DNA from: Populus alba
Taxonomy: Eukaryota > Streptophyta > Magnoliopsida > Malpighiales > Salicaceae
Length of the DNA: 64,000 nt
Reading direction: 5' to 3'
NCBI RefSeq assembly: GCF_005239225.2
Contig: NC_133289.1
Coordinates: forward strand, 14,802,889-14,866,888
Shown here piece after piece: positions 23,236-63,449 of this stretch. Position numbers and translations under genes: made by a program. How positions within the stretch are numbered: position 1 is the stretch's first letter; the number at the start of each line of letters is the position of its first letter. The notes below the pieces were generated by a model that worked only from the letters and a program-made list of their open reading frames with translations, was not told the origin of the DNA and did not search any database.

Positions 23236-23783
23236 ATGGACACCACTCTTGAAAATTGAAAAAGTATTTTCTCGCTCTACCTTAGAATGTGATTACAAAA
23301 ATTTACCATGCTAGATGAGTAAGATTGAGGTTGTTAATGAACCATGGAATTCCTGAAGATATTCGCTAGCTGATTAAAGCAAATGTTCGATTATCAGGTG
23401 AGTCCTCCAATTCTTTCATTTCATACATGCTTGGAACTGGTAAAAGCACTTTTGTGAAGAAACGTCGTGCAAAACAACTGAAAGTCTGTCACAGATGTGC
23501 CAGATGGACTTGTAATACGACATGTCATTCTTTAGTAAAGGTATCTGTAAACCGTGAAGATAAAATACAATTCATTAAGGATGGCCTGAGTAAGGTGTCT
23601 TTAAATAATCTTCTATTGACTCTTGAGAAGCACCCTAGTGGAGACGTGCATCGTGTAATTCATGATTTATGGCCACAATTTCATAAAGAATATGCTCGAC
23701 TTAGTCTTGAGAATTTGACTAAAAAAAACCATGTTTGCCAGTTTTTAAGAAAACTAGATGGGAAGCCTATCCTCGACCCATAG
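23236..23783 (+). pseudogene. ORF3, element D copy (frameshifted)
   Basis: The ATG and first codons match MDTTLE, then one base is missing near 23256 and further stops occur. From 23427 the open part resumes as GKSTFVKKRRAKQLKVCHRCARWTCNTTC and runs to the usual C-terminus LDGKPILDP at 23783. The four cysteines and the basic patch are kept although the gene is dead. Confidence 0.85.
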
Positions 23784-23991: not shown

Positions 23992-24646
23992 ATGGAAAGT
24001 TCCTCAAGTCATCACATAAGAAATATTTGTGTTTTTGATGGATCCAGTCCTGGGAAAGAAAAAGAGTTTTAAGAATCAGCAAATCATCTTGGTCAGGTAC
24101 TAGTTGAGCGAAAGATTCATTTAGTATATGGAGGAGGCAGCCTTAGGTTAATGGGGGGAGTGTCAATAGCTGCATTTTTAGAAGGTAGTCAAGTTTTGGG
24201 GGTTGTCTCTAAAGCTTTAGCACACGGGTACATCATTGGAAAAAATAATTGGAGAGGAACTAAAGGTCCCCATAATGTCTGATCGACTGAATGCAATGTT
24301 TAACCATGCTGATGCCTTCATTGCCTTACCAGGTGGTTTGGGCACATTAGAAGAGATCTTTCATATCTCCTCTTGGGCCCAACTGCATATTCACCATAAA
24401 CCCATAGGTTTGTTAAATGTTAATGGTTTTTATGATAAGTTGTTGTCTTTTATTGATCATGATGTGGAACAGGAATTTCTAACATCTTCGACACTAAAAA
24501 TCACAATCTCTATTGCTACTGCTGAACAATTGATTGACCAACTACAATCTTTTATCCCTGTAATTGATCCCTCTATGAGTCGCATAAATTGGTCAACTAA
24601 GGAAAGCTGTAAAAAGCTTAGATTGGATTTGAGGCTTCATTTGTAA
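23992..24646 (+). pseudogene. LOG-type cytokinin riboside 5'-monophosphate phosphoribohydrolase, element D copy (dead)
   Basis: Collinear with the 217-aa LOG of elements A and B. An in-frame TAA near 24068 replaces Leu in KEFLES, and an indel near 24235-24245 shifts the frame. The second half is open and reads SDRLNAMFNHADAFIALPGGLGTLEEIFHISSWAQLHIHHKPIGLL. The PGGLGTLEE signature is canonical here, so it was probably functional when D inserted. D is the oldest copy in the window, so its LOG shows that the gene was gained before the A/C subfamily arose. Confidence 0.88.
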
Positions 24647-45062: not shown

Positions 45063-46780
45063 TGATTAGTACTTAAAAGTGCATGTTTATCAAGGTTTTA
45101 TATCATCATTTTGCACTTTAAGTATCAATAACTCCTTAACGAAAGCATGTTTTATAATAACAAGTTTGATATTATAAGATACCTTAATTTATGGTAAATG
45201 CTCATTTTAAATGCAGGACTATCACATAAATAAAAGGATTGATTGATGAGTTTAAGCATTGAAAGTTAAAGGACAAAGAGATGGCCAAACTTAGAAAAGA
45301 GATGTCGGTGCAGTCCAAACCGGAACATTGCTCGGTAATTGGATCATATCTGGAGCTCTAGATCTCGGATTTAGGTCCATTTTATATGGATGGAAAGGTA
45401 AAACATAGGCCTACAACTTTCATTAGACACCAAGATCAAAGAAGGCCGTTTTCAAGTCCAAATTATAGGAACAATGAAGAAGTCCGAAGCTGTCCTGCAG
45501 CCCAGACACTATTTAGTGTTCAGCCCATATCTTGAGTTCTAGAAGTCCAAATGACCTCATCTTTTTAGAACATTCCTGAGGATTCTGGGCAAATTATGAT
45601 GTTAGCAATGACGTCTTGATCAGACAAGAAGATAAGGATTGTTAGCAAGTCAAGATGTGGCCACCCACTCATCAATTAGTCAACAAATCAATAGTTCCAA
45701 ATTTTGGCCTATAAAAGGAGGCACTTACCATGTATTGAGGCATCTTGGTTTCCAGATCAAGATCATGCTCTTGCTTTCTCTCTTTGTATTGCTTATGTTT
45801 TGCTTTCATTAATATCAAGTTTATGCACTTCATTTCCTTTCCTTTACTTAGTTAACTTCTTTCTCATTTATGTTCTTATCTTGTTTATTTATGTTTCTTT
45901 CTTTCATTATGTTTAACTAAGTTAATTATGTCAAGGTGAAAAGGGTACACTAATGGTGTAAGAATAAGTATAATATAAACTTAACATGGACCTTAATGTT
46001 GGATACTAACATGTTTTATATTTGTTATCTTGTTCACTTTTAATACTTTACTTGTTAAATGGTTAATCTAGATTTATGTTATATAACACTTGGTACAACA
46101 AATACTCGGTACTTTCATAGCCCATACTGTATGGTATAACCGACACCTGAGCTATGAAAGGACTTGATTTGTTGTTAACATAAGTTATAATAATGAATGC
46201 CTGCCAACATTTACAAGTATTAGCTTTATTCGAATAAGATAACTAATGTAATCATGTTATCAATTTATAATTTGATTGGAACCTCCTTTATGTGTGGTTT
46301 CCAATTGAGTAATAAGAGTTTATATTATACTTGTTTGAAGTACCATTAGTGGATCCTCTAACCTTGACATTTGTTTTTATCGTTGCTTAATCCTTACGTT
46401 AATCTTCCAACTCAAAGTTCTCATTAATTTCTTCATCTTCTTCTGTTATTATATTATTATTATTATTATTATTATTTACATTCTGTTTATATTATATAAT
46501 ATATATCTTTGATCTTTTCATAAACTCAGTATATAGGCTGGAAACCTGTGACCCGATCTTTTAGATCATTCTCAGGTATAACAACACCACGTACTGAGTA
46601 TAATAATAATAATTATTGTTATTGTTGTTGTTGTTGTTATTGATGTTATTGTTGTTGTTGTCTTGTTATTTATAATTTATACAATTAACCTCTCTGTGGT
46701 TCGACCCCGGTCTTGCCGGGTTATTTATTACTTCGACACTCCTGCACTTGGGAGAAGACATCAAGCTTTTGGTCGTGTCA
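45063..46780 (+). mobile_element. Element A 5' LTR
   Basis: TGATTAG...GTCGTGTCA, 1,718 bp. TATAAAAGG at 45710-45718. Lacks about 31 bp after 'GACCTCATCTTTTT' that B has. Contains the microsatellite-flanked 'GGCTGGAAACCTGTGACCC' core near 46537. Preceded by GTGAT, which should be its target duplication, but the other copy lies outside the window. Confidence 0.93.
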
Positions 46781-46804: not shown

Positions 46805-46961
46805 GGTAAATTCTTGTATAAATTATAATATTTATTTTATTTTATCTTTTCACTTTCCATTTTATTTAACTTTTGTTTCTTTTGTTTTCTTTTGTTTCGT
46901 TTTCTTCTCTTTTCTTTTCTTCCTTTTATTCTCTTTTTACACGTGCATGAGAGTTTGGTCA
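46805..46961 (+). other. Element A leader, interrupted by element B
   Basis: Untranslated leader, T-rich, collinear with B 48698-48856. It stops at GGTCA (46957-46961), which is repeated at 58750-58754 where A continues. This is the B insertion site. Confidence 0.92.
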
Positions 46962-48673
46962 TGATTAGTACTTAAAAGTGCATGTTTATCAAGGTTTTAT
47001 ATCATCATTTTGCACTTGAAGTATCAATAACTCCTTAACTAAAGCATGTTTTATAATAACAAGTTTGATATTATAAGATATCTTAATTTATGGTAAATGC
47101 TCATTTTAAATGCAGGACTATCACATAAATAAAAGGATTGATTGATGAGTTTAAACATTGAAAGTTAAAGGACAAAGAGATGGCCAAACTTAGAAAAGAG
47201 ATGTCGGTGCAGTCCAAACTGGAACATTGCTCGGTAATTGGATCATATCTGGAGCTCTAGATCTCGGATTTAGGTCCATTTTATATGGATGGAAAGGTAA
47301 AACATAGGCCTACAACTTTCATTAGACACCAAGATCAAAGAAGGCCGTTTTCAAGTCCAAATTATAGGAACAATGAAGAAGTCCGAAGCTGTCCTGCAGC
47401 CCAGACACTATTTAGTGTTCAGCCCATATCTTGAGTTCTAGAAGTCCAAATGACCTCATCTTTTTTTTGTTGGAAAGCTGAGACAATTTCCTAGAACATT
47501 CTTGAGGATTCTGGGCAAATTATGATGTTAGCAATGACGTCTTGATCAGACAAGAAGATAAGGATTGTTATCTAGTCAAGATGTGGCCACCCACTCATCA
47601 ATTAGTCAACAAATCAATAGTTCCAAATTTTGGCCTATAAAAGGAGGCACTTACCATGTATTGAGGCATCTTGGTGTTCAGATCAAGATCATGCTCTTGC
47701 TTTCTCTCTTTGTATTGCTTATGTCTTGCTTTCATTAATATCAAGTTTATGCACTTCATTTCCTTTCCTTTGTCTAGTTAACTTCTTTCTCATTTATGTT
47801 CTTGTCTTGCTCATTTATGTTTCTTTCTTTTATTATGTCTAGCTAAGTTAATTATGTCAAGGTGAAAAGGGTACACTAATGGTGTAAGAACAAGTATAAT
47901 ATAAACTTAACATGGACCTTAACGTTGGATACTAACATGTTTTATATTTGTTATCTTGTTCACTTTAATACTTTGCTTGTTAAATGGTTAATCTAGATTT
48001 ATGTTGTGTAACACTTGGTACAACAAATACTTGGCACTTTCATAGCCCATACTGTATGGTTTAACCGACACCTGAGCTATGAAAGGCACTTGATTTGTTG
48101 TTAACACAAGTTATAATCATGAATGCCTGCCAACATTTACAAGTATTAGCTTTATTCGAATAAGATAATTAATGTAATCATGTTAACAATTTATAATCTG
48201 ATTGGAACCTCCTTTATGTGTGGTTTCCAATTGAGTAATAAGAGTTTATATTATACTTGTTTGAAGTAGCATAAGTGGATCCTCTAACCTTGACATTTGT
48301 TTTTATCATTGTTTAATCCTTACGTTAATCTTTTATCTCAAAGTTCTCATTAATTTCTTCATCTTCTGTTATTATTATTATTATCATTGTTATTATTATT
48401 ATTATTTACATTCTGTTTATACTATATAATATATATCTTTGATCTTTTCATAAAGTCAGTATATAGGCTGGAAACCTGTGACCCGATCTTTAGATCATTC
48501 TCAGGTATAACAACGCCACGTACTGAGTATTATTATTGTTGTTGTTGTTGTTGTCTTGTTATTTATAATTTATACAATTAACCTCTCTGTGGTTCGACCC
48601 CGGTCTTGCCGGGTTATTTATTACTTCGACACTCCTGCACTTGGGAAGAGACATCAAGCTTTTGGTCGTGTCA
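46962..48673 (+). mobile_element. Element B 5' LTR
   Basis: TGATTAG...GTCGTGTCA, 1,712 bp. Promoter-like TATAAAAGG at 47636-47644, so U3 is about 0.7 kb and R-U5 about 1 kb. Between about 47300 and 47375 its sequence follows the A 5' LTR rather than its own 3' LTR. Confidence 0.95.
47636..47644 (+). promoter_or_regulatory. LTR promoter TATA box, element B
   Basis: TATAAAAGG, conserved at the same LTR position in A (45710), C (19608) and the B 3' LTR (57721). It would start the genomic RNA about 30 bases downstream. Confidence 0.7.
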
Positions 48674-48679
48674 AGTTTT

Positions 48680-48697
48680 TGGCGCCGTTGCCGGGGA
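48680..48697 (+). other. Primer-binding site of element B (tRNA-Asp)
   Basis: TGGCGCCGTTGCCGGGGA, identical to that of element A, six bases after the LTR end. Confidence 0.92.
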
Positions 48698-48910
48698 GGT
48701 AAATTCTTGTATAAATTATAATATTTAATTTAGTTTCTCTTTTCACTCTTCATTTTATTTAACTTTTGTTTTCTTTGTTTTGTTTTGTTTTGTTTCTTTT
48801 TCTTCTATTTTCTTTTCTTCCTTTTATTCTCTTCTTACACGTGCATGAGAGTTTGGTCACGTACATTAAGTGGTCGACTTTGTAGGGTATCTTCATCATT
48901 TTCAGAAAAT

Positions 48911-49927
48911 ATGGCCGAAGAAGATAATCAATCGCTTCATAATGAGAATAATGAGAATAACCGTATGAGAACACTTAGAGACCACATGAATCCCACAAGA
49001 ACAAGTGCACCCTCATGCATAGTTTTCCCTCCTGATGCATCTCATTTTAATTTTAAGCCAGACATTATTCAACTTTTACCATCTTTTCATGGCTTAGACT
49101 TAGAAAATCCATACTTGCATTTAAGGGAATTTGAGGAGGTCTGTAATACCTATAATGACTCAAATTGTAGCATGAACACCATTCGATTAAAGCTTTTTCC
49201 TTTTTCATTAAAAGATAAAGCTAAAACATGGCTACAAAATTTGAGACCGGGATCCATTCGTGCTTGGGATGAAATGCAACAACAATTTTTAAAGAAGTTT
49301 TTTCCATCTCACAGAACAAACTCTTTCAAAAGACAAATCATCACTTTCACTCAAAAACCAGGAGAAACATTTTACCAATGTTGGGATAGGTATCGAGATT
49401 TGCTTAATACTTGCCCACATCATGGTTTTGAAACATGGAGATTGGTTTCACATTTTTATGAAGGTTTAACGCCTAGAGATAGGCAAATGGTTGAATTGAT
49501 GTGCAATGGAACTTTCGAAGATAAAGACCCTAATGAAGCAATGGAGTACCTAGACTTGCTAGCCGAAAATGCTCAAAATTGGGACACCACAGGTACTTAT
49601 GAGGCACCAAGTAAAACTCAACCCCATACATCTAGTGGAGGTATGCACAACCTTAGGGAAGATCATGACCTCCAAGCCAAGTTTGCATCTTTAGCTAGAA
49701 AAGTCGAGGCACTAGAATTAAAAAAGAGTGGTCAATTAAAATATGTTCAAGACATTGTGTGTCAAATCTGTGAAATAAATGAGCATGCAACCAATGATTG
49801 TCCAACTTTGCCTTCTTTCAAGGAATGCCTCCATGAACAAGCCCATGCTTTAAACAGTTTCCAAAGACCCAACCATAACCCATACTCACAAACATATAGG
49901 GGGTTGGAGAAATCACCTAAATTTTAG
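48911..49927 (+). CDS. Gag, element B (separated from pol by a small deletion)
   Basis: Starts at [12 protein letters not shown] (ATG 48911); upstream in-frame residues come from leader and are ignored. Retrotransposon gag capsid domain: [99 protein letters not shown] zinc-knuckle-like [15 protein letters not shown] follows (C-x2-C-x4-H-x4-C). In element A gag runs on into protease in one frame. Here two bases are missing near 49899 (TATAGGGGGTTGG where A has 15 bases), so the frame ends early at 49927. The protein would form the virus-like particle around the RNA. Confidence 0.92.
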
Positions 49928-52900
49928 TTGGAAGAGTGATAGCAACAATGCACAAACTTCACATCCACCGTTTCGAGCACACCATAATTTCCAAAATTCT
50001 CATGGATATGCACCTCCTTATGCTCCACCTCCTAGAAGAAATTTTGAGGAAACATTGCATGCATTCATTGAAAAGCAGGAGACAATCAACACTCAACTTG
50101 CTCAAAGCATGACCGATTTTAAAGATGCTCTTGCAAAATTAACATCTGCTCTCAGTTTCCAAGAGAAAGGTAAGTTTCCTTCTCAACCACAGCAAAATCC
50201 AAAGGGGCAATACAATGCAAATGCAAGTAGTTCTGGAAGCCAACACATGGATCAAGTCAAATCAGTCATCACTCTTCGTAGTGGTAAGGTTATTGAAAAA
50301 CCTATTCTTGAACCTTGTGAGAAAGATGATGAGTCTATCTCTGAGGGTAAGGAAGGGGTTGAACCTGAACATTGCAAAGAAAAGGCTGATTCCCCGCCAG
50401 CACTTCCATTTCCTCATGCCATGATCAAACAAAGGAAAGTTAGTCACAACTCTGAAATCTTTGAAATTTTCAAACAGGTAAGGATCAATATACCTTTGTT
50501 GGATGCTATTAAACAGGTTCCTTCCTATGCTAAATTTTTGAAAGATCTGTGCACTGTGAAGAGAAAATTGAATGTGAAAAAGAAAGCATTTTTAGCCGAA
50601 CAAGTAAGTGCCATTCTTCAGAACAATAATGCTTTGAAATATAAAGACCCTGGTTGTCCTACAATTTCTTGCTTTATTGGAGAACATAAAATTGAAAGAG
50701 CCTTACTTGATCTTGGAGCTAGTGTGAATTTACTTTCATATTCAGTTTTTCAGAGTCTCAATCTAGGTGAGTTAAAACCAACCTCTGTAACTCTTTTACT
50801 CGCCGATAGATCTGTAAAAGTGCCTAGAGGAATAATTGAAGATGTGTTGGTACAAGTTGATAAATTCATTTATCCTGTGGATTTTGTTGTCTTGGACACG
50901 CAACCTGTTGAAGCATGTAATTCAATTCCTGTCATTTTAGGACGTCCATTTCTTGCCACTTCTAATGCATTGATTAATTGTAGGAATGGACTGATGAAGT
51001 TATCATTTGGAAACATGACATTGGAGATGAATATTTTCAACATTTACAAGCAACCTGGAGATGATAATGATTTACAGGAAGTGGACTTTATTGAAAAATT
51101 AGTTCATGATCAATTTCAAACCACTTCTAGTGAAACTGAGATTGATGAATCTGATGATTTGCAAATGGTCTACTTTCAGGAATCAAAGGCATGCAATTGG
51201 AAACCACAAATTGAAGAATTTCCACCACGATCAATTGAGCCCATACCTTCAAGTGTTCAACCACCAAAACCTGAATTGAGGCCGTTACCATTTAATCTCA
51301 AATACTCATTTTTGGGAGAAAATGAAACTTTTCCGGTAATAATCTCTTCCAAACTTAATGCGCATCAAGAAGGTAAGTTATTACAGACTCTGAAAATGCA
51401 CAAAAATGCATTAGGATGGACCATAGCTGACATAAAAGGAATTAGCCCTTTGATTTGCACACACAGGATTTATTTGGAGGAAAATGCTAAACCCTCTAGA
51501 GAAATGCAACGAAGGCTTAATCCTAATATGAAAGAAGTAGTGAAAAATGAAGTCATTAAGCTTCTAGATAATGGAATCATTTATCCTATTTCTGATAGCA
51601 AATGGGTAAGTCCTACCCAAGTTGTACCCAAAAAGTCTGGAGTCACTGTGATAACAAATGAGAAAAATGAGTTAATTCCAACTAGGACTGTTACGGGTTG
51701 GCGCATGTGCATTGACTATAGGAAACTTAATTCAATGACAAGAAAAGATAATTTCCCTTTACCTTTCATGGACCAAATCCTAGAAAGAGTTGCAGGTCAT
51801 GAATTTTATTGTTTCCTAGATGGTTATTCAGGTTACAATCAAATTGAAATTGCATTGGAAGATCAAGAGAAGACTACTTTCACATGTCCATTTGGTACTT
51901 TTGCATATCGAAGGATGCCTTTTGGATTATGTAATGCACCAGCCATGTTTCAAAGATGCATGCTTAGCATATTCAGTGATATGGTTGAACGTTTTCTTGA
52001 AATTTTTATGGATGATTTTTCTGTTTTTGGTGATTCATTTGATGATTGTTTGACTAACTTAGAAAAGGTTTTGAGCAGGTGTGAAGAGAAGAATCTTGTA
52101 CTGAATTGGGAAAAATGTCACTTTATGGTAACAAACGGCATTGTACTTGGTCACATTGTTTCATCGAAAGGAATTGAGGTTGACAAATCTAAAATCGAGT
52201 TAATTGCCAACTTACCAACACCAAAATCTGTTAAAGATGTTAGATCATTCTTAGGACATGCTGGTTTTTACAGAAGGTTCATCAAAGATTTTAGTGTAAT
52301 ATCTAAGCCTTTGAGTAACCTTCTAACAAAGGATAATATTTTTGAATGGACTGAACATTGTGAGGAAGCCTTTGTTAAACTTAAAAACTTGCTTACTTCT
52401 GCTCCTGTCATTCAACCTCCTGATTGGTCATTACCTTTTGAAATAATGTGTGACGCTAGTGATTATGTCGTGGGTGCTGTCTTGGGACAAAGGAAAGATA
52501 AGAAACCTTATGTGATTTACTATGCAAGTAAAACTTTAAATAGTGCTCAAATGAATTACACTACCACTGAAAAAGAATTACTTGCAGTAGTATTTGCATG
52601 TGACAAGTTCAGATCTTATCTTGTTGGCTCACCTGTTATTGTTTTTAGTGATCATGCAGCATTGAAATATCTTCTCTCTAAGAAAGATTCTAAGGCTAGA
52701 TTGGTGCGGTGGATTTTGTTACTTCAAGAATTTGATATCACAATCAAAGACAAGAAAGGCACCGAAAATGTTGTCGCGGATCATTTGTCAAGATTGACAA
52801 CCGATTCGAGATCTGACATTACACCAATCGATGACTACTTTCCTGATGAATCTTTATTTTCTGTCTCTACGATGCCTTGGTTTGCTAATATTGTTAATTT

Positions 52901-54170
52901 TCTTGTTTCAGGACAATTGCCAGCTCATTGGAGTACCCAAGTTAAAAGAAAGTTCTTGAACGAAGTAAAGAAATTTTATTGGGATGACCCTTATTTATTC
53001 AAATATTGTCCTGATCAAATATTTCGAAGATGCATTCCTGACAATGAGGTAAGTAGTGTCATTAAATTTTGTCATTCTGAGGCATGTAGGGGTCATTTCT
53101 CATCAAGAAAGACAACTGCAAAAATCTTACAAAGTGGATTCTATTGGCCCACCATGTTCAAAGACTCACATGCATTCTGTAAGATTTGTGAAAATTATCA
53201 AAAGTTGGGATCTATTTCGAAACGTCACATGATGCCTTTAAATCCTATTCTTGTCATTGAGATCTTTGATTGTTGGGGTATAGATTTCATGGGTCCATTT
53301 CCTCCATCATTTGGTTTCTTGTACATATTGGTCGCAGTAGATTATGTTTCAAAATGGATAGAGGCAATTCCAAGTCGAACCAATGATCACAAAATAGTGA
53401 TAAAGTTTTTGAAAGAAAACATTTTAAGTCGATTTGGAATCCCTCGAGCCATGATAAGTGACGGTGGAACACACTTTTGCAACAAGCCATTTGAGTCTTT
53501 AATGAAGAAATATGGAATCACACATAAAGTTGCCACCCCTTATCACCCTCAGACAAGTGGACAAGTAGAGCTTGCTAATAGGGAGATCAAACAGATCTTG
53601 GAGAAAACAGTGAACCCTAATAGGAAAGACTGGTCTTTAAGACTTAATGATGCACTTTGGGCTTATCGAACTACTTATAAAACATCATTAGGTATGTCAC
53701 CTTATAGACTAGTCTATGGAAAACCTTGTCACTTGCCTGTGGAAATTGAACATAAAGCTTATTGGGCTATTAAAGCTTTCAATTCAAGCCTTGATGATGC
53801 TAGTCAGCTGCGAAAATTGCAAATAAATGAGCTTGAGAAAATAAGAAATGATGCATATGACAATTCAAAAATTCATAAAGCAAGAATTAAAGAGTTTCAT
53901 GACAAGAAAATACTGAGAAAAACATTCAATGTTGGTCAAAAAGTCTTGCTTTATAATTCTCGACTCCATTTATTTCCTGGAAAACTAAGAACAAGATGGA
54001 GCGGTCCTTTTATTGTGAAACATGTGTATCCATATGGGGCCTGTGATATTGAGAATCCAAAGAATGGCAATGTTTTCAAGGTAAATGGGCATCGTTTGAA
54101 AGTTTATTTTGACAATTTTTCGGTTGAAAATGACTCTATTGAATTGAGTGATCCTGTATATAAAGATTGA
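49928..54170 (+). CDS. Pol polyprotein (protease, RT, RNase H, integrase), element B
   Basis: Open from 50055 to 54170 (1,371 codons). Its first codons are really the gag C-terminal linker, since gag-pol is one frame in the family. Counting from 50055: protease active-site region [11 protein letters not shown] near residue 217; RT with MCIDYRKLN near 551, [11 protein letters not shown] near 590 and the catalytic FMDDF near 651; RNase [16 protein letters not shown] near 796-810. Integrase has its zinc site at about 1012-1060, then GIDFMGPF near 1075, SDGGTHF near 1135 and [10 protein letters not shown] near 1171 (the D,D-35-E triad). The C-terminal domain ends [12 protein letters not shown]. 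The second zinc-binding Cys of the CENCQ motif is Tyr (CENYQK), whereas A, C and D keep it or a readable Cys. Integrase may therefore be impaired. There is no stop within 4.1 kb, so the insertion is young. Confidence 0.93.
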
Positions 54171-54232
54171 TTCTTTTTCTCACATTGTTTTGTGTTTTGT
54201 TGTTTTGCAAGTCTCTCTTTCACCCCGGTCAA

Positions 54233-54256
54233 ATGGCGGATAACGGTACTCCGTGA
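54233..54256 (+). CDS. Seven-codon conserved mini-ORF (MADNGTP), element B
   Basis: ATGGCG... to TGA within a 60-bp block (CCCCGGTCAAATGGCGGATA onwards) that is almost invariant in A, B, C and D although it lies between genes. It precedes ORF3 by 109 bases. Confidence 0.35.
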   Translation: MADNGTP

Positions 54257-54263
54257 CTTAAGT

Positions 54264-54275
54264 CGGTTCTTTCAG
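54264..54275 (+). promoter_or_regulatory. Candidate 3' splice site upstream of ORF3
   Basis: CGGTTCTTTCAG, a pyrimidine stretch ending in CAG, is conserved in all four copies about 90 bases before the ORF3 ATG. Athila-type elements are thought to express genes 3' of pol from spliced RNA, so this could be the acceptor. No donor was assigned. Confidence 0.35.
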
Positions 54276-54364
54276 TTTCCCAAATAACTGATATCTGTAT
54301 ATGTTTGTATAATTCTTAGCTCTTTCTTCCTTCTTTGAATCGCTTCTCTAATTCTCTTTTGAAA

Positions 54365-54913
54365 ATGGACACCACTCTTGAAAAGTTGAAAAGGTATTTT
54401 CCCGCTTTGCCTCCAAATGCGATTAATAAAATTTACCGTGCTAGGTGTGCAAGATTGAGGTTGTTAATGAATCATGGAATTCCTGAAGATATCCATTGGT
54501 TAATTGAAGCAAAGGTTCGATTATCAGGTGAGTCATCCAATTCTTTCATTTCACACATGCCTGGAATAGGTAAAAGCACTTTTGCAAAGAAACGTCGTGC
54601 AAAACGACTGAAAGTCTGTCATCGATGTGCCAAATGGACTTGTAATATGACATGTCGTTCTTTAGGAATGGTATCTGTAAACCGTGAAGATAAGATACAA
54701 TTCATTAAGGATGGCCTGAGTAAGGGGTCTTTAGATAATCTTTTGTTGACCCTTGAGACGCATCCTAGTGGAGATGTGCATCGTGTAATTCATGATTTAT
54801 GGCCACAATTCCATAAAGAACATGATCGACTTAGTCTTGGGAATCTGACTAAAAAAGACCCTGTTTGCCAGTTTTTAAGAAAACTGGATGGGAAGCCTAT
54901 CCCCGACCCATAG
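54365..54913 (+). CDS. ORF3: cysteine-rich, nucleic-acid-binding-like protein (carlavirus NABP-like), element B
   Basis: 182 aa, start MDTTLEKLKR. The ATG is chosen because all four copies align from here; the frame upstream is leader. N-terminal half is helical-looking (KLKRYFPALPPNAINKIYRARCARLRLLMNHGIPEDIHWLIEA, residues 8-49). Then come SFISHMPGIGKSTFAKKRRAKRLK (60-83) and four cysteines C85-x2-C88-x4-C93-x3-C97, then LGMVSVN and IQFIKDGL (111-118). A basic patch, a Cys cluster, a Gly-x-x-x-Asn turn and a F-I-x-x-G segment is the order I know from the carlavirus cysteine-rich nucleic-acid-binding proteins (Pfam Viral_NABP). The rest of the protein has no relative I recognise. It is not an envelope protein: no signal or membrane segment. 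Likely nuclear or RNA/DNA-binding; function unproven. Confidence 0.72.
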   Translation: MDTTLEKLKRYFPALPPNAINKIYRARCARLRLLMNHGIPEDIHWLIEAKVRLSGESSNSFISHMPGIGKSTFAKKRRAKRLKVCHRCAKWTCNMTCRSLGMVSVNREDKIQFIKDGLSKGSLDNLLLTLETHPSGDVHRVIHDLWPQFHKEHDRLSLGNLTKKDPVCQFLRKLDGKPIPDP

Positions 54914-55162
54914 AGGGCGTTTAAGCCGTTCTTGGACGTAAAACCAAGGGAAGATGTGAGCCACAATCACAACTACCTGTACATACATGCTTTTTCAAAA
55001 TAAATAATTAATAAAGAGAGAGAGAGAGAGTTTGTGAGACTATAGCTGGCCTATATATAGGTGGTATGATTGCATTTTCACTTTTTCATCTATAAATTCT
55101 TCTCTTCCTTCCCTTCATTTCTACTCATCCCATATATTCATCAAATATAGAAGTGTGTAGAA
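54914..55162 (+). promoter_or_regulatory. ORF3-LOG spacer with candidate private LOG promoter, element B
   Basis: Contains a (GA)n run (55015-55030), CTATATATAG (55051-55060) and TATAAAT (55091-55097), followed by a CT-rich stretch. TATAAAT lies 72 bases before the LOG ATG in both A and B and 62 in D. GA repeats and a TATA box followed by pyrimidines are normal in plant core promoters. LOG could thus be transcribed independently of the LTR. Confidence 0.5.
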
Positions 55163-55816
55163 ATGGCAGGTTCCTCAAGTCATCATATAAGAAATATTTG
55201 TGTTTTCGGTGGATCCAGTTCTGGGAAAGAAAAAGAGTTTTTAGAATCAGCAAATCATCTTGGTCGGGTACTAGCTGAGAGAAAGATTCATTTAGTGTAT
55301 GGGGGAGGCAGCCTTGGGTTAATGGGAGGTGTGTTAATGGCTGCATTTTTAGGAGGCAGTCAAGTTTTGGGGGTTGTCCCCAAAGCTTTAGCAACTGGGG
55401 ACATCATTGGAAAAACAATTGGAGAGGAACTACAGGTCCCAACAATGTCTGACCGACTGAATACCATGTTTAACCATGCTGATGCCTTCATTGCCTTACC
55501 AGGTGGTCTGGGCATATTGGAAGAGATCTTTCATATTTCATCTTGGGCCCAACTGCACATTCACCATAAACCTATAGGTTTGTTAAATGTTAATGGTTTT
55601 TATGATAAGTTGCTGTCTTTCCTTGATCAAGCTGTGGAACAGGAATTTCTAACATCTTCGGCACGACGAATCATAATCTCTGCTGCTACTGCTGAACAAT
55701 TGATTGACCAACTACAATCTTTCATCCCTGTCATTGATCCCTGCATGAGTCGGCTAGATTGGTCAACTAAGGAAAGCCGTAAAAAGCTTAGATTAGATTT
55801 GAGCCTTCATCTGTGA
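55163..55816 (+). CDS. LONELY GUY-type cytokinin riboside 5'-monophosphate phosphoribohydrolase carried by element B
   Basis: 217 aa, intronless. Rossmann-like LOG/lysine-decarboxylase-like family: NICVFGGSSSGK (11-22), HLVYGGGSLGLMGG (43-56), LGVVPKAL (69-76), SDRLNTMFNHADAFIALPGG (96-115), then WAQLHIHHKPIGLLNVNGFYDKLLSFL. LOG enzymes release active cytokinin base from its riboside monophosphate, in the cytosol or nucleus. The family signature PGGxGTxxE reads PGGLGILEE here (T118I), which may hurt catalysis; A and D have Thr. The length fits plant LOGs (about 210-240 aa), whose nuclear genes have several introns, so an mRNA origin is likely. The C-terminal RLDWSTKESRKKLRLDLSLHL is unlike the usual short LOG tail. 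It lies in the same orientation as pol, 249 bases after ORF3. Confidence 0.93.
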   Translation: MAGSSSHHIRNICVFGGSSSGKEKEFLESANHLGRVLAERKIHLVYGGGSLGLMGGVLMAAFLGGSQVLGVVPKALATGDIIGKTIGEELQVPTMSDRLNTMFNHADAFIALPGGLGILEEIFHISSWAQLHIHHKPIGLLNVNGFYDKLLSFLDQAVEQEFLTSSARRIIISAATAEQLIDQLQSFIPVIDPCMSRLDWSTKESRKKLRLDLSLHL

Positions 55817-57045
55817 AACCTTGTGTCTTTTGGTTTTATTAATAGCATATTATTTTGTTTTTGTTACTTCTTATGTTTGTTTAAGTGTGTTTCAGGTTTG
55901 TCATTGTTCGCTGTTTCAGGTGATGTCTTCTATACTCTATCTTTCTACCTTCGAACATTGAGGACAATGTCTCGTTTTGGTTGGGGGAGAGGGTAGTAGT
56001 TTAAAAAAAAAAAAATACTAACTTGCTAACTGTTTTTGCTATTATTAAAACCATTTGACAAAATTGTTATTAGGATGGCAGAGTATGGAATCAATTTTAT
56101 TGACTCTAGAGACGCATCTTAGTAAGTTTCATTACCAAGGTCTATCATAATACTTCTTGAAATATTCAGGTTTACAAACTCTCACATTGTTATCACTTGA
56201 TTCTGCTCCTATACTCATTTAACAAGTATTATTAAACCTTCATTTTCACACACACACTTTAACATATGATTGTGGGTTGCACATTGGATTATTACATTAA
56301 TTATGTTCTTTTGTTGAAGGTAACAACTAAGGGAAAAGGATAGTATATAATTTGCAAAGAAAAAAAAAAAAAAGATAGTATTGATGATAATAAAACGTGG
56401 ATAAGTTTGGTTTCGTAGCCTCCCTAACCTAAGCAATTAAGCCCGAAGGGGTGTTTTAACACCTAATACCCTAAAGTCAACTGACTTGGGAGCTATTGGC
56501 TCAAAACTTGTTACATGGGTTAAGGAGAAAAGCTTAAGGGAATCAAACATTGCACTATCTACGTATCAGTATCTGCAACCCGAGTTGTTAAGCTCGTAGG
56601 GGTGTCTCAACACCTAATGCCCTAAGACCAACTGGTCTGGGAGTCATTAGCCTAAAACTCGTTACATGGGTTAAAGATACATTGTGTTTTAAGTTGTATG
56701 TGTATATAAATAAAAAGAAAAAAAAAAGAAAAAAAAAAGAGAAAAAAAAAAAGAAGAAAAAAATCCCAACCCAAGGAAGTTCACCTTAAACATTTGAACA
56801 TAATATTGTTTTCTTCCAACAAAAGCCCCATCATCTATGTTTTCATTGAGCACACAAAAAGAAGGTTTATTAATATCTTGTTTACGAAGTATGAAGCAGG
56901 AATATAAATTTAATGAGAGTTTGTTTATCTGGATAGATTAATGGAAGTTGAATGATGAATGCCTTGCTTTGTGGAACTTGCAAATTGTTTCTCTATTTTA
57001 ACGCTTTAGATTACTAGGGACTAGTAATAAGCTGGTTGGGGGGTG
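55817..57045 (+). other. Element B 3' non-coding region
   Basis: 1.2 kb without a gene. In order: ACATTG-AGGA-CAATGT hairpin (55955-55970); a purine tract GGTTGGGGGAGAGGG (55979-55993) followed by poly-A; a tandemly duplicated 151-bp RNA motif (56411-56680); an A/G-rich run (56710-56762); and the polypurine tract GGTTGGGGGGTG (57034-57045) just before the 3' LTR. The same order is found in C and D. Confidence 0.85.
56411..56680 (+). repeat. Duplicated structured RNA motif, period 151 bp
   Basis: Two diverged units. Each has GGTGT-(4 nt)-ACACC (56450-56463 and 56601-56614), followed 25 bases later by a 4-bp stem with loop AACT: AGTC-AACT-GACT at 56475-56486 and GACC-AACT-GGTC at 56626-56637. 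Three of the four pairs differ by compensating changes. Both units end '..TTACATGGGTTAA'. Confidence 0.65.
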
Positions 57046-58749
57046 TGATTAGTACTTAAAAGTGCATGTTTATCAAGGTTTTATATCATCATTTTGCACT
57101 TGAAGTATCAATAACTCCTTAACTAAAGCATGTTTTATAATAACAAGTTTGATATTATAAGATATCTTAATTTATGGTAAATACTCATTTTAAATGCAGG
57201 ACTATCACATAAATAAAAGGATTGATTGATGAGTTTAAGCATTGAAAGTTAAAGGACAAAGAGATGGCCAAACTTAGAAAAGAGATGTCGGTGCAGTCCA
57301 AACCGGAACATTGCTCGGTAATTGGATCATATCTGGAGCTCTAGATTTCGGATTTAGGTCCACTTTATATGGATGGAAAGGTAAGACAAAAGCCTACAAC
57401 TTTCATGCGGAGCCCAAGTTTTGAAAAGGTCGTTTTGAAGTCCAAATTGAAGGAACAACGAAGAAGTCCGAAGCTGTCCTGCAGCCCAAACACTATTTAG
57501 TGTTCAGCCCATATCTTGAGTTCTAGAAGTCCAAATGACCTCATCTTTTTTTTGTTGGAAAACTGAGACAATTTCCTAGAACATTCTTGAGGATTCTGGG
57601 CAAATTATGATGTTAGAAATGACCTCTTGATCAGACAAGAAGATAAGGATTGTTATCTAGTCAAGATGTGGCCACCCACTCATCAATTAGTCAACAAATC
57701 AATAGTTCCAAATTTTGGCCTATAAAAGGAGGCACTTACCATTTATTGAGGCATCTTGGTGTTCAGATCAAGATCATGCTCTTGCTTTCTCTCTTTGTAT
57801 TGCTTATGTCTTGCTTTCATTAATATCAAGTTTATGCACTTCATTTCCTTTCCTTTGTCTAGTTAACTTCTTTCTCATTTATGTTCTTGTCTTGCTCATT
57901 TATGTTTCTTTCTTTTATTATGTCTAGCTAAGTTAATTATGTCAAGGTGAAAAGGGTACACTAATGGTGTAAGAACAAGTATAATATAAACTTAACATGG
58001 ACCTTAACGTTGGATACTAACATGTTTTATATTTGTTATCTTGTTCACTTTAATACTTTGCTTGTTAAATGGTTAATCTAGATTTATGTTGTGTAACACT
58101 TGGTACAACAAATACTTGGCACTTTCATAGCCCATACTGTATGGTTTAACCGACACCTGAGCTATGAAAGGGACTTGATTTGTTGTTAACATAAGTTATA
58201 ATCATGAATGCCTGCCAACAGTTACAAGTATTAGCTTTATTCGAATAAGATAATTAATGTAATCATGTTAACAATTTATAATCTGATTGGAACCTCCTTT
58301 ATGTGTGGTTTCCAATTGAGTAATAAGAGTTTATATTATACTTGTTTGAAGTACCATAAGTGGATCCTCTAACCTTGACATTTGTTTTTATCATTGTTTA
58401 ATCCTTACGTTAATCTTTTATCTCAAAGTTCTCATTAATTTCTTCATCTTCTGTTATTATTATTATTATCATTGTTATTATTATTATTATTTACATTCTG
58501 TTTATACTATATAATATATATCTTTGATCTTTTCATAAAGTCAGTATATAGGCTGGAAACCTGTGACCCGATCTTTAGATCATTCTCAGGTATAACAACG
58601 CCACGTACTGAGTATTATTGTTGTTGTTGTCTTGTTATTTATAATTTATACAATTAGCCTCTCTGTGGTTCGACCCCGGTCTTGCCGGGTTATTTATTAC
58701 TTCGACACTCCTGCACTTGGGAAGAGACATCAAGCTTTTGGTCGTGTCA
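57046..58749 (+). mobile_element. Element B 3' LTR
   Basis: TGATTAG...GTCGTGTCA, 1,704 bp. TATAAAAGG at 57721-57729. Differs from the 5' LTR at scattered single bases plus a dense cluster near 57385-57465. Followed by the target duplication GGTCA at 58750-58754. Confidence 0.95.
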
Positions 58750-58754
58750 GGTCA
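58750..58754 (+). repeat. Target site duplication of element B, right copy (GGTCA)
   Basis: Matches GGTCA at 46957-46961. Joining the two sides recreates the family leader GAGTTTGGTCACGTACATTA, which B itself shows uninterrupted at 48849 onward. Confidence 0.97.
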
Positions 58755-58805
58755 CGTACATTAAGTGGTCGACTTTGTAGGGTATTCTCATCATTTTCAG
58801 AAAAT

Positions 58806-60475
58806 ATGGCCGAAGAAGATAATCAATCGCTTCATAATGAGAATAATGAGAATAACCGTATGAGAACACTTAGAGACCATATGAATCCCACAAGAACAAG
58901 TGCACCCTCATGCATAGTTTTCCCTCCTGATGCATCTCATTTTAATTTTAAACCAGGCATTATTCAACTTTTACCTTCTTTTCATGGTTTAGACCTAGAA
59001 AATCCATACTTGCATTTAAGGGAATTTGAGGAGGTCTGTAATACCTATAATGACTCAAATTGTAGCATGAACACCATTCGATTAAAGCTTTTTCCTTTTT
59101 CATTAAAAGATAAAGCTAAAACATGGCTACAAAATTTGAGACCAGGATCCATTCGTGCTTGGGATGATATGCAACAACAATTTTTAAAGAAGTTTTTTCC
59201 GTCTCATAGAACAAACTCTTTCAAAAGACAAATCATCACTTTCACTCAAAAGCCAGGAGAAACATTTTACCAATGTTGGGATAGGTATCGAGATTTGCTT
59301 AATACTTTCCCACATCATGGTTTTGAAACATGGAGATTGGTTTCACATTTTTATGAAGGTTTAACACCTAGAGATAGGCAAATGGTTGAATTGATGTGCA
59401 ATGGAACTTTTGAAGATAAAGACCCTAATGAAGCAATGAAGTACCTAGACTTGCTAGCCGAAAATGCTCAAAATTGGGACACCACAGGTACTTATGAGGC
59501 ACCAAGTAAAACTCAACCTCATACATCTAGTGGAGGTATGCACAACCTTAGGGAAGATCATGACCTTCAAGCCAAGTTTGCATCTTTAGCTAGAAAAGTC
59601 GAAGCACTTGAATTGAAAAAGAGTGGTCAATTAAAATCTGTTCAGGACATTGTGTGTCAAATCTGTGAAACCAAGGAACACTCAACCAATGATTGTCCAA
59701 CTTTGCCTTCTTTCAAGGAATGCCTCCATGAACAAACTCATGCTTTAAACAGTTTCCAAAGGCCCAACCATAACCCATACTCGCAAACATACAATCCTGG
59801 TTGGAGAAATCACCCAAATTTCAGTTGGAAGAGTGACAACAATAATACACAAAGTTCACAGCCACCATTTCAAGCACACCATAATTTCCAAAATTCTTAT
59901 GGATATGCACCTCCTTATGCTCCACCTCCTAGAAGAAATTTTGAGGACACATTGCATGTATTCATTGAAAAGCAGGAGACAATCAACACTCAACTTGCTC
60001 AAAGCATGACAGATTTTAAAGATGCTCTTGCAAAATTGACATCTGCTCTCAGTTTCCAAGAGAAAGGTAAGTTTCCATCTCAACCACAACAAAATCCAAA
60101 GGGGCAATACAATGCAAGTAGTTCCGGAAGTCAACACATGGATCAAGTCAAATCAGTCATCAGTCTTCGTAGTGGTAAGGTTATTGAAAAACCTATTCTT
60201 GAACCTTGTGAGAAAGATGATGAGTCTATCTCTGAGGGTAAGGAAGGGGTTGAACCTGAACATTGCAAAGAAAAGGCTAATTCCCCGCCATCACTTCCAT
60301 TTCCTCATACCATGACCAAACAAAGGAAAGTCAATCACAACTCTGAAATCTTTGAAATTTTCAAACAGGTAAGGATCAATATACCTTTGTTGGATGCTAT
60401 TAAACAGGTACCTTCCTATGCTAAATTTTTGAAAGATCTTTGCACTGTGAAGAGAAAACTGAATATGAAAAAAAA
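58806..60475 (+). CDS. Gag and start of protease region, element A
   Basis: ATG 58806, [12 protein letters not shown]. Same capsid domain as in B; zinc-knuckle-like CQICETKEHSTNDCP. Unlike B it continues in frame through NPGWRNHPNFSWKSDNNN, the proline/tyrosine-rich [14 protein letters not shown] and the linker [18 protein letters not shown] up to VKRKLN. One extra A in a run of ten (60468-60477) then shifts the frame, which closes at 60521. The protease continues in the next frame from about 60480. Gag and protease were thus a single frame in this family. Confidence 0.9.
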
Positions 60476-60479
60476 AAGC

Positions 60480-61785
60480 CTTTTTAGCCGAACAAGTAAG
60501 TGTCATTCTTCAAAACAATAATGCTTTGAAATATAAAGACCCTGGTTGTCCTACAATTTCTTGCTTTATTGGAGAACATAAAATTCAAAGAGCCTTACTT
60601 GATCTTGGAGCTAGTGTGAATTTACTTCCATATTCAGTTTTTCAAAGTCTCAATCTAGGTGAGTTAAAACCAACTTCTGTAACTCTTTTACTCGCCGATA
60701 GATCTGTAAAAGTGCCTAGAGGAATAATTGAGGATGTGTTAGTACAAGTTGATAAATTTATTTATCTTGTGGATTTTATTGTCTTGGACACGCAACCTGT
60801 TGAAGCATGTAATTCATTTCCTGTTATTTTAGGACGTCCATTTCTTGCCACTTCTAATGCATTGATTAATTGTAGGAATGGACTGATGAAGCTATCATTT
60901 GGAAACATGACATTGGAGATGAATATTTTCAACATTTGCAAGCAACCTGGAGATGATAATGATTTACAAGAAGTAGATCTTATTGAAGAATTAGTTCATG
61001 ATCAACTTGAATCTACTTTGAGTAAAATTGAGTTGGATGAATCTGAAGATTTGCAAATGATTTATTCTCAGGAAGAAATCACGGATGAAAAAGGCACCAA
61101 AAATATTGATGTTGATCTTGTGTCAAAAGTGACAACAGATTTGACATTTGACATCTCACCAATCGATGATTACTTTCCTGAAGAATCCTTACTTTCTCTC
61201 AGTTCAATGCTTTGGTTTGCTAAAAATATCAATTTTCTTGCAACAGGAGATTTGCCAGCTCACTGGAGTACCGAAGACAAAGGAAAGTTTTTGAACGAAG
61301 TGAAGAACTTTTACTTAGATGACCCTTACTTATTCAAAAATTATCCTGATCAAATATTTCAAAAATGCATTCCCGACAATGAGGTAAGTAATGTCATTAA
61401 ACTTTGTCATTCTGAAGCATGTGGGAGTCAATTCTCATCAAGAGAGACGACTGCAAAAATCTTACAAAATGGATTTTATTGGCCCACCATGTTTAAGGAC
61501 ACACATGCATTCTGCAAAACTTGTGAAAATTGTCAAAAAGTTGATACTGGTCAAAAAGTTTTGCTTTATAATTCTCAACTTCATTTATTTCCTGAAAAAC
61601 TAAGATCAAGATGGAGCGGTCCAATTATTTTGAAACATGTGTATCCTTATGGGGCCCTTGATATTGAGAATCCAAAGAATGACAATGTTTTGAAGGTAAA
61701 TGAACATCGTTTAAAAGCTTACTTTGATGAGTTTCCTAGTGAAAATGAATCCATTGGTTTGAATAATCTTATTGATAAAGGTTGA
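60480..61785 (+). CDS. Protease fused to RNase H tail and integrase ends, element A
   Basis: An open frame of over 400 codons despite two large internal deletions. It has the protease region ([41 protein letters not shown]), a joint near 61074-61090 passing into the RNase H tail (EKGTKNIDVDLVSKVTTDL), and the integrase zinc site (HSEACGSQFSSRETTAKIL...CKTCENCQK). A second joint near 61540-61550 leads to the integrase C-terminal domain ([25 protein letters not shown]...). RT, most of RNase H and the D,D,E core are missing. Both joints keep the frame and recur in element C. A protein of this composition could at most supply protease; upstream it needs the frame broken at 60477. Confidence 0.87.
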
Positions 61786-61993: not shown

Positions 61994-62542
61994 ATGGACA
62001 CCACTCTTGAAAAGTTGAAAAGGTATTTTCCCGCTCTGCCTCAGAATGCGATTACAAAAATTTACCGTGCTAGGTGTGAAAGATTACGGTTGTTAATGAA
62101 TCATGGAATTCCTGAAGATATTCGCTGGCTAATTGAAGCAAAGGTCCGATTATCAGGTGAGTCCTCCAATTCTTTCATTTCACACATGCCTGGAACAGGT
62201 AAAAGCACTTTTGCAAAAAAACGTCGTGCTAAACGACTGAAAGTCTGTCACAGATGTGCCAGATGGACTTGTAATGCGACATGTCGTTCTTTAGGAATGG
62301 TATCTGTAAACCGTGAAGATAAAATACAATTCATTAAGGATGGCCTGAGTAAGGGGTCTTTAGATAATCTTTTGTTGACCCTTGAGACGCATCCTAGTGG
62401 AGATGTGCATCGTGTAGTTCATGATTTATGGCCACAATTCCATAAAGAACATGATCGACTTAGTCTTGGGAATCTGACTAAAAAAGACCTTGTTTGCCAG
62501 TTTTTAAGAAAACTGGATGGGAAGCCTATCCCCGACCCATAG
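61994..62542 (+). CDS. ORF3: cysteine-rich, nucleic-acid-binding-like protein, element A
   Basis: 182 aa, complete, start MDTTLEKLKR. Very similar to the B protein, with MPGTGKSTFAKKRRAKRLK followed by CHRCARWTCNATC. Because the enzymes of pol are lost in A while this frame is whole, it is the clearest sign that ORF3 matters to the element, or that the insertion is recent. See the B entry for domain reasoning. Confidence 0.75.
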   Translation: MDTTLEKLKRYFPALPQNAITKIYRARCERLRLLMNHGIPEDIRWLIEAKVRLSGESSNSFISHMPGTGKSTFAKKRRAKRLKVCHRCARWTCNATCRSLGMVSVNREDKIQFIKDGLSKGSLDNLLLTLETHPSGDVHRVVHDLWPQFHKEHDRLSLGNLTKKDLVCQFLRKLDGKPIPDP

Positions 62543-62795: not shown

Positions 62796-63449
62796 ATGGC
62801 AGGTTCCTCAAGTCATCACATAAAAAATATTTGTGTTTTCGGTGGATCCAGTCCTGGGAAAGTAAAAGAGTTTTTAGAATCAGCAAATCATCTTGGTCGG
62901 GTACTAGCTGAGAGAAAGATTCATTTAGTGTATGGGGGAGGTAGCCTTGGGTTAATGGGAGGTGTTTCAATGGCTGCATTTTTAGGAGGCAGTCAAGTTT
63001 TGGGGGTTGTCCCCAAAGCTTTAGCAAATGGGGACATCATTGGAAAAACAATTGGAGAGGAACTACAGGTCCCAACAATGTCTGACCGACTGAATACCAT
63101 GTTTAACCATGTTGATGCCTTCATTGCCTTACCAGGTGGTCTGGGCACATTTGAAGAGATCTTTCATATTTCATCTTGGGCCCAACTGCACATTCACCAT
63201 AAACCTATAGGTTTGTTAAATGTTAATGGTTTTTATGATAAGTTGCTCTCTTTCCTTGATCAAGCTGTGGAACATGAATTTCTAACATCTTCGGCACGAC
63301 GAATCATAATCTCTGCTGCTACTGCTGAACAATTGATTGACCAAGTACAATCTTTCATCCCTATCATTGATCCCTGCATGAGTCGCCTAGATTGGTCAAC
63401 TAAGGAAAGCCGTAAAAAGCTTAGATTAGATTTGAGCCTTCATCTGTGA
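62796..63449 (+). CDS. LONELY GUY-type cytokinin riboside 5'-monophosphate phosphoribohydrolase carried by element A
   Basis: 217 aa, intact and intronless. NICVFGGSSPGK (11-22), VYGGGSLGLMGG (45-56), VVPKAL (71-76), SDRLNTMFNHVDAFIALPGGLGTFEE (96-121), WAQLHIHHKPIGLLNVNGFYDKLLSF. The PGGxGTxxE signature and the preceding Arg (SDR) that LOG enzymes use for the nucleotide are all present, so this copy is the best candidate for an active enzyme. It would convert cytokinin nucleotides (iP- or tZ-riboside monophosphate) to free cytokinin. Compared with B I count about 16 base differences, some 11 of them changing residues. Confidence 0.93.
   Translation: MAGSSSHHIKNICVFGGSSPGKVKEFLESANHLGRVLAERKIHLVYGGGSLGLMGGVSMAAFLGGSQVLGVVPKALANGDIIGKTIGEELQVPTMSDRLNTMFNHVDAFIALPGGLGTFEEIFHISSWAQLHIHHKPIGLLNVNGFYDKLLSFLDQAVEHEFLTSSARRIIISAATAEQLIDQVQSFIPIIDPCMSRLDWSTKESRKKLRLDLSLHL

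Follow-up and report, generated by a model that had tools for sequence, protein, structure and literature searches.

An Athila-like retrotransposon of poplar carries two additional genes

The present analysis concerns a 64,000-nucleotide stretch of the Populus alba genome (contig NC_133289.1, positions 14,802,889 to 14,866,888, forward strand; hereafter the window), in which a Ty3/gypsy long terminal repeat (LTR) retrotransposon, element A, carries two open reading frames (ORFs) between integrase and the 3′ LTR. The first, ORF3, resembles cysteine-rich nucleic-acid-binding proteins (NABPs) of plant viruses, and the second derives from the cytokinin-activating LOG enzymes. The initial annotation had placed ORF3 and then LOG downstream of pol in element A, and both the coordinates and the Pfam profiles agree with it. 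The features of element A are as follows.

46962-58749, plus strand: element A, with LTRs and a GGTCA target duplication on both sides
46957-46961 and 58750-58754: left and right copies of the GGTCA target duplication
46962-48673, plus strand: 5′ LTR, 1712 bp, with TG...CA ends
48680-48696, plus strand: primer binding site TGGCGCCGTTGCCGGGG, by sequence match
48785-49927, plus strand: gag ORF (Retrotrans_gag, E 4e-21)
50055-54170, plus strand: pol ORF with protease, reverse transcriptase (RT), RNase H and integrase, by Pfam
54365-54913, plus strand: ORF3, 182 codons from ATG, with a KKRRAKR basic stretch and a CxxCx4Cx3C cluster
55163-55816, plus strand: LOG-derived ORF, 217 codons, intronless
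55775-55813, plus strand: C-terminal tail of the LOG ORF, SRKKLRLDLSLHL, a basic stretch followed by LxLxLxLxL
57034-57045, plus strand: polypurine-tract-like GGTTGGGGGGTG adjoining the 3′ LTR, read by eye
57046-58749, plus strand: 3′ LTR, 1704 bp

The two LTRs differ at 32 of 1703 aligned sites (Kimura two-parameter distance 0.019). The gag and pol ORFs of copy A lie in different frames, and other copies in the genome contain stop-free frames of up to 1812 codons across integrase. We take the primer binding site TGGCGCCGTTGCCGGGG to be of the tRNA-Asp type, which presumably fits Athila. Pfam detected one RNase H region in element A and no second, archaeal-type RNase H, although a weak second domain could escape such a search. 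The order protease, RT, RNase H, integrase, with extra ORFs before the 3′ LTR, is the layout of the Athila clade (clade features from PMC6317226).

ORF3 and LOG are a standing component of the element family

Searches of the genome (416 Mb, 96 contigs) returned 1248 first-look candidates for LOG, 1715 for ORF3 and 3847 for a piece of integrase; in each case 150 candidates were scored (for LOG the best-scoring copies only), and the unscored first-look candidates are not confirmed copies. All 150 scored LOG candidates matched the family, 149 of them without a stop, and 138 of the 150 scored ORF3 copies were likewise free of stops. In a LOG-anchored sample of 20 of the 150 LOG matches, taken with flanks, ORF3 was at least partly present upstream in every locus (degraded in L011 and L012), and gag or pol pieces were found in 19, the exception being L020. 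In the diverged loci L011 and L012, LOG matched over all 217 residues beside the degraded ORF3, and LOG can thus outlast ORF3.

In the sample anchored on ORF3, LOG lay at the expected place in 33 of 36 copies (19/20 in a first set, with L047 lacking it, and 14/16 in a second, with L057 and L064 lacking it), and in 10 of the 20 copies of the first set it was full-length, ungapped and stop-free. Four further ORF3 places (C3:4780322, C31:7815, C13:9602900 and C17:9300059) were left uncounted; each has a LOG match ∼1 kb on. For an integrase-anchored sample we took 20 of the 150 matches most like A, at about every seventh row into the lower list. LOG, whole or in pieces, was at the expected offset in 16 of them; L067 and L079 had no LOG, and L068 and L081 had pol sequence at that place. 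LOG is therefore present in most sampled copies genome-wide rather than absent outside the window, in line with the initial proposal that the family keeps it as a standing component. We conclude with high confidence that ORF3-LOG is a standing, selected accessory module of one Athila-like Ty3/gypsy lineage.

ORF3 is related to cysteine-rich proteins of plant viruses

With 10 upstream codons included, ORF3 of element A matched Viral_NABP (E 2e-07) and Carla_C4 (E 2.2e-05), both above the curated cut-off, which ORF3 of the neighboring element B also exceeded. Among 30 aligned relatives, 28 matched Viral_NABP and 27 Carla_C4 at E ≤ 0.001. In the alignment, a KKRRAKR-type stretch precedes a C-x2-C-x4-C-x3-C cluster, and the C-terminal half is conserved; a loose form of the cysteine pattern fits 84 of the 120 relatives listed, and identity over the length of ORF3 is 65-77% in the more distant aligned relatives. 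The plants named among the best 120 of 595 relatives are Populus, Xanthoceras and Acer, and in a tree of 27 sequences Xanthoceras groups with Acer (95/86) to the exclusion of poplar, with weak deep support. The AlphaFold2 model of ORF3 was poor (mean predicted local distance difference test score 57.2), no solved structure matched, and two scans of viral contigs, one with the ORF3 alignment and one with LOG, confirmed no relatives.

Judged by these profiles, ORF3 is a relative of the cysteine-rich NABPs of carlaviruses and related plant viruses. The viral proteins are silencing suppressors and pathogenicity factors, and p12 of chrysanthemum virus B (CVB) is reported to suppress silencing weakly and to act as a transcription factor, causing hyperplasia (PMC12172455).

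The element LOGs form one clade apart from the sampled host LOGs

The LOG ORF of element A matched the Lysine_decarbox (LOG) profile of Pfam (E 2.5e-36) and contains the catalytic Arg and Glu of the family and its PGGxGTxxE motif, with Ile for Thr in copy A. The element LOG is 46-49% identical to 11 plant host LOGs, and the 150 matches listed in a search of the genome with AtLOG3 look like element copies (49-53% identity). Among the 45 proteins placed in a tree, 27 formed a single clade with support of 97/97, namely the element-type LOGs of poplar, Xanthoceras and Acer (P0260) together with P0250-P0252, P0254 and P0262. A second clade (98/93) contained 14 host LOG7-type proteins, those of poplar and Xanthoceras included, together with AtLOG3 and AtLOG8; these are the host LOGs that the tree covers. 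AtLOG8 and the bacterial sequences formed long branches; a quick tree that omitted AtLOG8 and one bacterium gave the element clade support of 89 (unstarred). Grouping the poplar element LOGs with the two tested poplar host LOGs was rejected (approximately unbiased (AU) test, p 1.4e-07), and the tree tests likewise reject the LOG7 host genes of these two genera, Populus and Xanthoceras, as a recent source of the element LOGs. Because the element LOGs form a single clade apart from the sampled host LOGs, the results argue for one old capture and not for repeated recent ones, such as three independent recent insertions of LOG into the copies in the window.

In Xanthoceras, LOG protein P0249 (ACOSQ2_032186) and ORF3 relative P0202 (ACOSQ2_032187) have consecutive locus tags and come from contigs of equal length, and the Xanthoceras/Acer LOG clusters P0242 and P0243 contain 35 and 39 member sequences, respectively. 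The LOGs of Xanthoceras and Acer therefore probably also lie in elements. A LOG7-type host gene of poplar (C6:19026589-19026886) has a ∼0.1 kb interruption at a point where the element LOGs are continuous, which suggests capture through spliced RNA.

Two observations on annotated proteins belong here: element-type LOGs such as P0094, P0116, P0002 and P0039 are annotated as poplar LOGL10 or as hypothetical proteins, and Xanthoceras P0104 and P0112 are annotated proteins with two tandem LOG domains. Between 55040 and 55162, upstream of the LOG ORF of A, the sequence resembles a core promoter in its GA repeat, its CT-rich leader and a TATAAA at -72. A promoter belonging to LOG itself was considered and rejected: copy A has TATATATA, but 25 of 32 copies have CTACATATAGG at that place. 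Of the 32 copies, 30 have TATAAA at -72, L011 has it at -71 and L034 lacks it; because the whole spacer is ∼95% conserved, these motifs are no evidence of a promoter.

The poplar element LOGs have changed pocket residues and an EAR-like tail

Residue roles were assigned in CgLOG numbering, in which the proposed cytokinin side-chain pocket comprises Met96, His97, Lys100, Glu125 and Trp129 (PMC4979012). Arg99, Glu121, Glu122, Trp129 and Ser19 are kept in all 32 full-length poplar copies and Met96 in 31; Thr119 is likewise present in 31, and copy A has Ile in PGGxGT. Three pocket residues are replaced in all 32 copies: His97 by Ser or Phe, Lys100 by Leu and Glu125 by His. The 23 anchored LOG copies show the same pattern, with Met at Lys100 once and Cys at Trp129 once. 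The full set of proposed plant-type pocket residues is thus absent from the poplar copies and present in six Xanthoceras element-type LOGs; Xanthoceras, Acer and P0250-type LOGs retain His97, Lys100 and Glu125, and P0262, sister to the poplar clade, is intermediate, with His kept, Lys replaced by Ile and Glu by Gln. In P0116, Lys replaces Glu121. Overall, the active-site residues are largely kept across element LOGs that are only ∼60% identical.

The C-terminal tails read SKKRRLA in Xanthoceras, SKRRRLD in Acer and the P0250 type, NKRKLDLTLRL in P0262 and SRKKLRLDLSLxL in poplar, with no such tail in host LOG7. Among 104 element-type LOG proteins (P0001-P0120 of 214-219 amino acids; 16 of other length dropped), LxLxL occurs in the last 10 residues of 102, the extended form LxLxLxLxL occurs in 85, and the body of the protein contains LxLxL in none, whereas only 1 of 99 host-like LOGs has LxLxL in its last 15 residues. 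With LxLxL or DLNxxP as the definition of the ethylene-responsive element binding factor-associated amphiphilic repression (EAR) motif, 102 of the 104 proteins carry one, in the form LxLxL. A review of EAR repressors lists LxLxLxLxL in two of 119 proteins and the C terminus as the commonest place for the motif (PMC9956375). Over the whole element protein the modal residue frequency is 0.90, whereas the residue preceding the final leucine varies freely (0.64).

These changes bear on the initial proposal that the element raises cytokinin, that is, that its LOG is an ordinary cytokinin-activating enzyme and that raised free cytokinin favors spread in the meristem or germline. Several observations favor that proposal: both catalytic residues are kept, nearly all full-length copies retain Arg99, Glu122, Thr119 and PGGxGTxEE, the identity to plant host LOGs reaches 46-49%, the Xanthoceras element-type LOGs have the full canonical pocket, and hyperplasia is also caused by CVB p12, a viral relative of the partner protein (PMC12172455). 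The replacement of three of five pocket residues (His97, Lys100 and Glu125) in 32/32 poplar copies, together with the basic, EAR-like LxLxL tail, weakens it; moreover, free hormone would work in trans, so that copy-by-copy retention would not be expected unless its effect were early and local. Overall, we consider a cytokinin-raising element unlikely.

The same residues could instead mean that LOG in poplar has remained an active phosphoribohydrolase but has taken another AMP-like or modified nucleotide as its new substrate, tuning the pools of nucleotides, or modified nucleotides, while reverse transcription proceeds. The catalytic residues and the phosphate-binding Thr are kept while the side-chain pocket is changed, P0262 is intermediate, and CgLOG reportedly accepts AMP itself as a substrate (PMC4979012). 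Against this, the conserved tail would be left unexplained, and we give this alternative a low probability too.

ORF3 and LOG are under purifying selection

Selection was estimated with the Goldman-Yang (GY) codon model on a fixed tree; copies with stops were set aside, so that the estimates are conditioned on intactness. The ORF3- and integrase-anchored samples together supplied 23 distinct LOGs free of stops (8 with stops excluded), for which omega was 0.416, with twice the log-likelihood difference (2ΔlnL) from omega 1 being 33.2. Similar values were obtained for 30 LOGs from the LOG-anchored and first ORF3-anchored sets and the window (omega 0.432, 2ΔlnL 34.6) and for 31 ORF3s (omega 0.358, 2ΔlnL 33.7). 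Pairwise Nei-Gojobori (NG86) ratios in the first sample were 0.30 for LOG (n = 22), 0.215 for ORF3 (n = 20), 0.26 for the protease region (n = 11), 0.21 for RT-integrase (n = 4) and 0.12 for gag (n = 2). LOG is thus under purifying selection, with omega ∼0.42. In the 23 LOGs, variants shared by at least two copies comprised 27 synonymous and 26 non-synonymous changes, and singletons 27 and 33, respectively; the constraint is therefore moderate, and many of the differences probably arose after insertion.

That LOG and ORF3 are neutral passengers, which look conserved because the copies are young, would agree with the stops or frameshifts in many sampled LOGs, with the difference of only 1.9% between the LTRs of A and with the near-equal numbers of shared synonymous and non-synonymous variants. 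We nevertheless regard it as very unlikely, given the omega of 0.416 in copies that were not chosen by LOG, the active-site residues largely kept at ∼60% identity and the 65-77% identity of ORF3 in distant relatives. Finally, chance proximity or misannotation, by which host LOG genes merely lie near retrotransposons, can be set aside with near certainty: databases do call some of these proteins LOGL10 (P0094, P0116), but order, strand and spacing are constant inside elements with LTRs and target duplications, the 1248 first-look LOG candidates yielded 150 matches among 150 scored, and the LOG7-type gene is a separate, intron-bearing locus.

Other copies in the window and a non-autonomous subfamily

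Three further copies, B, C and D, lie in the window.

45063-46780, plus strand: 5′ LTR of element B, with GTGAT to its left
58683-61779, plus strand: gag, protease and shortened pol of B, with RT, RNase H and much of integrase gone
61994-62542, plus strand: ORF3 of B
62796-63449, plus strand: LOG ORF of B
16978-17526, plus strand: ORF3 of C, cut short by 14 codons through a stop at codon 169
23253-23783, plus strand: broken ORF3 of D, with three internal stops
23992-24613, plus strand: broken LOG of D, with a frameshift and stop codons

Element A is nested in the leader of element B, whose right end lies ∼2.45 kb outside the window and which is flanked by GTGAT on both sides. The initial annotation had A, B and D each carrying ORF3 and LOG, and C ORF3 only. 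The gene order holds, but both genes of D are broken and ORF3 of C is truncated; among the window copies, both genes are open in A and B only. LOG has been deleted in C, which aligns to A until A:55097 and resumes at A:55848, with the junction near 17713-17732.

The pol of both B and C joins residues ∼1-376 to ∼897 onward, with a second gap before 1292, so that RT, RNase H and much of integrase are missing. B retains gag, protease, ORF3 and LOG, and C retains protease and the early-stop ORF3. A gag piece at 11042-11476 may belong to C. The pol junction (left at about residue 376, right at 867 to 899) recurs in 8 of the 20 LOG-anchored loci (L009, L010, L013, L017, L019, L024, L025 and L028; in the window, 58683-61779 and 14924-16718), which therefore belong to an amplified non-autonomous subfamily. 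Eight distinct LOGs of the shortened-pol kind, B included, gave omega 0.363 (2ΔlnL 12.3), a value biased low because the loci were chosen from high-scoring LOG matches, and five stop-free ORF3s of this kind gave omega 0.296 (2ΔlnL 9.9). Although non-autonomous, most of these copies keep gag, protease, ORF3 and LOG, genes that act in trans.

Elsewhere in the window, an ORF of 285 codons with an AP2 domain (1458-2318, minus strand; E 1.3e-14) is probably an ordinary host transcription factor gene.

A possible host-directed role of the module

The explanation that we favor, at a little under even likelihood, is that ORF3-LOG is an old, selected module with a rebuilt LOG and that both of its proteins act on the host. 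A single ancient capture would have brought an intron-free copy of a LOG gene from a plant into the element, at a time when the lineages found today in Populus and Sapindales (Xanthoceras and Acer) had not yet diverged. The poplar lineage would then have rebuilt it: the catalytic Arg and Glu stayed, the pocket was altered and the basic tail gained an EAR-like LxLxLxLxL end. Both proteins would most likely act on the host largely in the nucleus, easing expression or copying of the element, with ORF3 as a silencing suppressor or host-gene regulator like its viral relatives. The LOG derivative may recruit or titrate TOPLESS-type corepressors via its tail, and any remaining nucleosidase activity would be on a changed substrate. 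What the data show is an accessory module that is conserved and under selection, with a single clade of element LOGs, replaced residues and an EAR-like tail; where the proteins act, contact with TOPLESS, suppression of silencing and any benefit to the element are inferred. A nuclear effector role of LOG, read from the tail, is put forward tentatively, as a possibility below even likelihood. More speculative still, and in our estimate rather improbable, is the full pairing, in which the captured LOG would be a nuclear, TOPLESS-engaging effector working with a virus-type silencing suppressor or transcription factor as a two-gene host-manipulation module.

Several results count against this explanation. 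LOG is missing at 4 of 20 integrase-anchored and 3 of 36 ORF3-anchored places and is deleted in C, and is therefore dispensable for a single copy. Taken by itself, the first ORF3-anchored set, with 10 stop-free LOGs, shows weaker selection (omega 0.589, 2ΔlnL 4.0). The catalytic Arg is absent, by pattern and by eye, from 6 of 113 parsed element-type database proteins (a seventh picked out by the pattern proved on inspection to have it), and Acer P0260 lacks Arg99 and has lost Met96 and Ser19 too. The change of pocket and tail is not general to the lineage because the Sapindales element LOGs keep a canonical pocket and have no LxLxL. The pocket roles are an inference of the CgLOG authors, and the enzyme might still accept cytokinin nucleotides. 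As for the tail, when the last 16 residues of each of the 104 proteins were shuffled, LxLxL appeared in the last 10 residues in 8.4% of cases, all LxLxL tails may descend from one event, and the modal frequency of the tail leucines (0.93-0.99) is no higher than that of body leucines (mean 0.97). Further, an EAR motif alone need not bind TOPLESS (PMC7446885).

Many extra ORFs of plant retrotransposons lack recognizable relatives, and whether extra genes benefit the element at all is an open question. For ORF3 and LOG, the activities of relatives are known and selection acts on both; LOG moreover offers a traceable path from canonical enzyme through an intermediate to the rebuilt form, which makes the function of accessory genes testable. 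Were the proposal true, the two-gene module would be comparable to pathogen effectors, resident in the genome in perhaps a thousand copies by first-look counts. In addition, element genes may account for many of the gene models labeled “LOG” in poplar, in which case the number of cytokinin genes would be overestimated.

Comparison with known systems

Two Athila-like elements with similarity to LOGL4 were reportedly described by Steinbauerova et al. in 2011. According to PMC9289625, Ty3/gypsy consensus sequences from Citrus sinensis, C. clementina and Populus trichocarpa contain a YgdH/LOG domain; the paper credits Steinbauerova et al. 2011 for the LOG-like domain in Ty3/gypsy. LOG inside such elements is therefore already on record, although the initial annotation knew of no described lineage of this kind. 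Among the matches listed in our literature search, PMC9289625 was the only report on LOG in retrotransposons, and none dealt with a viral-type ORF in retrotransposons or, judged by title, with EAR motifs in transposons. A term search of the accessible text of a 2020 review of additional ORFs (PMC7264820) found neither LOG nor cytokinin. Chiba et al. 2011 (PMC3136472) report a betaflexivirus replicase in cucumber, a case different from that of ORF3. In a literature search largely without subscription papers, the viral-type partner ORF3, the pocket change of LOG and its tail appear to be new.

With AtLOG3 (PDB 2a33) and the plant LOG enzymes, the element LOG shares the fold family, the catalytic residues and PGGxGTxEE; unlike them, the poplar element LOG has three of five pocket residues replaced, a basic LxLxL tail and no intron. 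The EAR effector HaRxL21, like the element LOG, has a short LxLxL at its very C terminus; TOPLESS binding is shown for HaRxL21, whereas the element LOG offers the motif alone (PMC7446885). ORF3 resembles the cysteine-rich NABPs of carla-, allexi-, viti- and mandariviruses (PF05515, PF01623) in profile and in the basic stretch followed by a Cys cluster, but lies between integrase and the 3′ LTR of an LTR retrotransposon and has a conserved C-terminal half outside the Pfam matches. The Athila-like elements already reported with a LOG-like extra ORF have, as here, LOG/YgdH in Ty3/gypsy of Citrus and Populus (PMC9289625); as far as known, the accounts of them do not mention the viral-type ORF3, the pocket changes, the tail, the selection or a single origin shared with Sapindaceae. 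Finally, orchid Ty3/gypsy elements with an AlkB m6A demethylase carry a different enzyme family, whose activity was shown in vitro, and, like the elements described here, have kept a captured host-type enzyme (PMC9289625).

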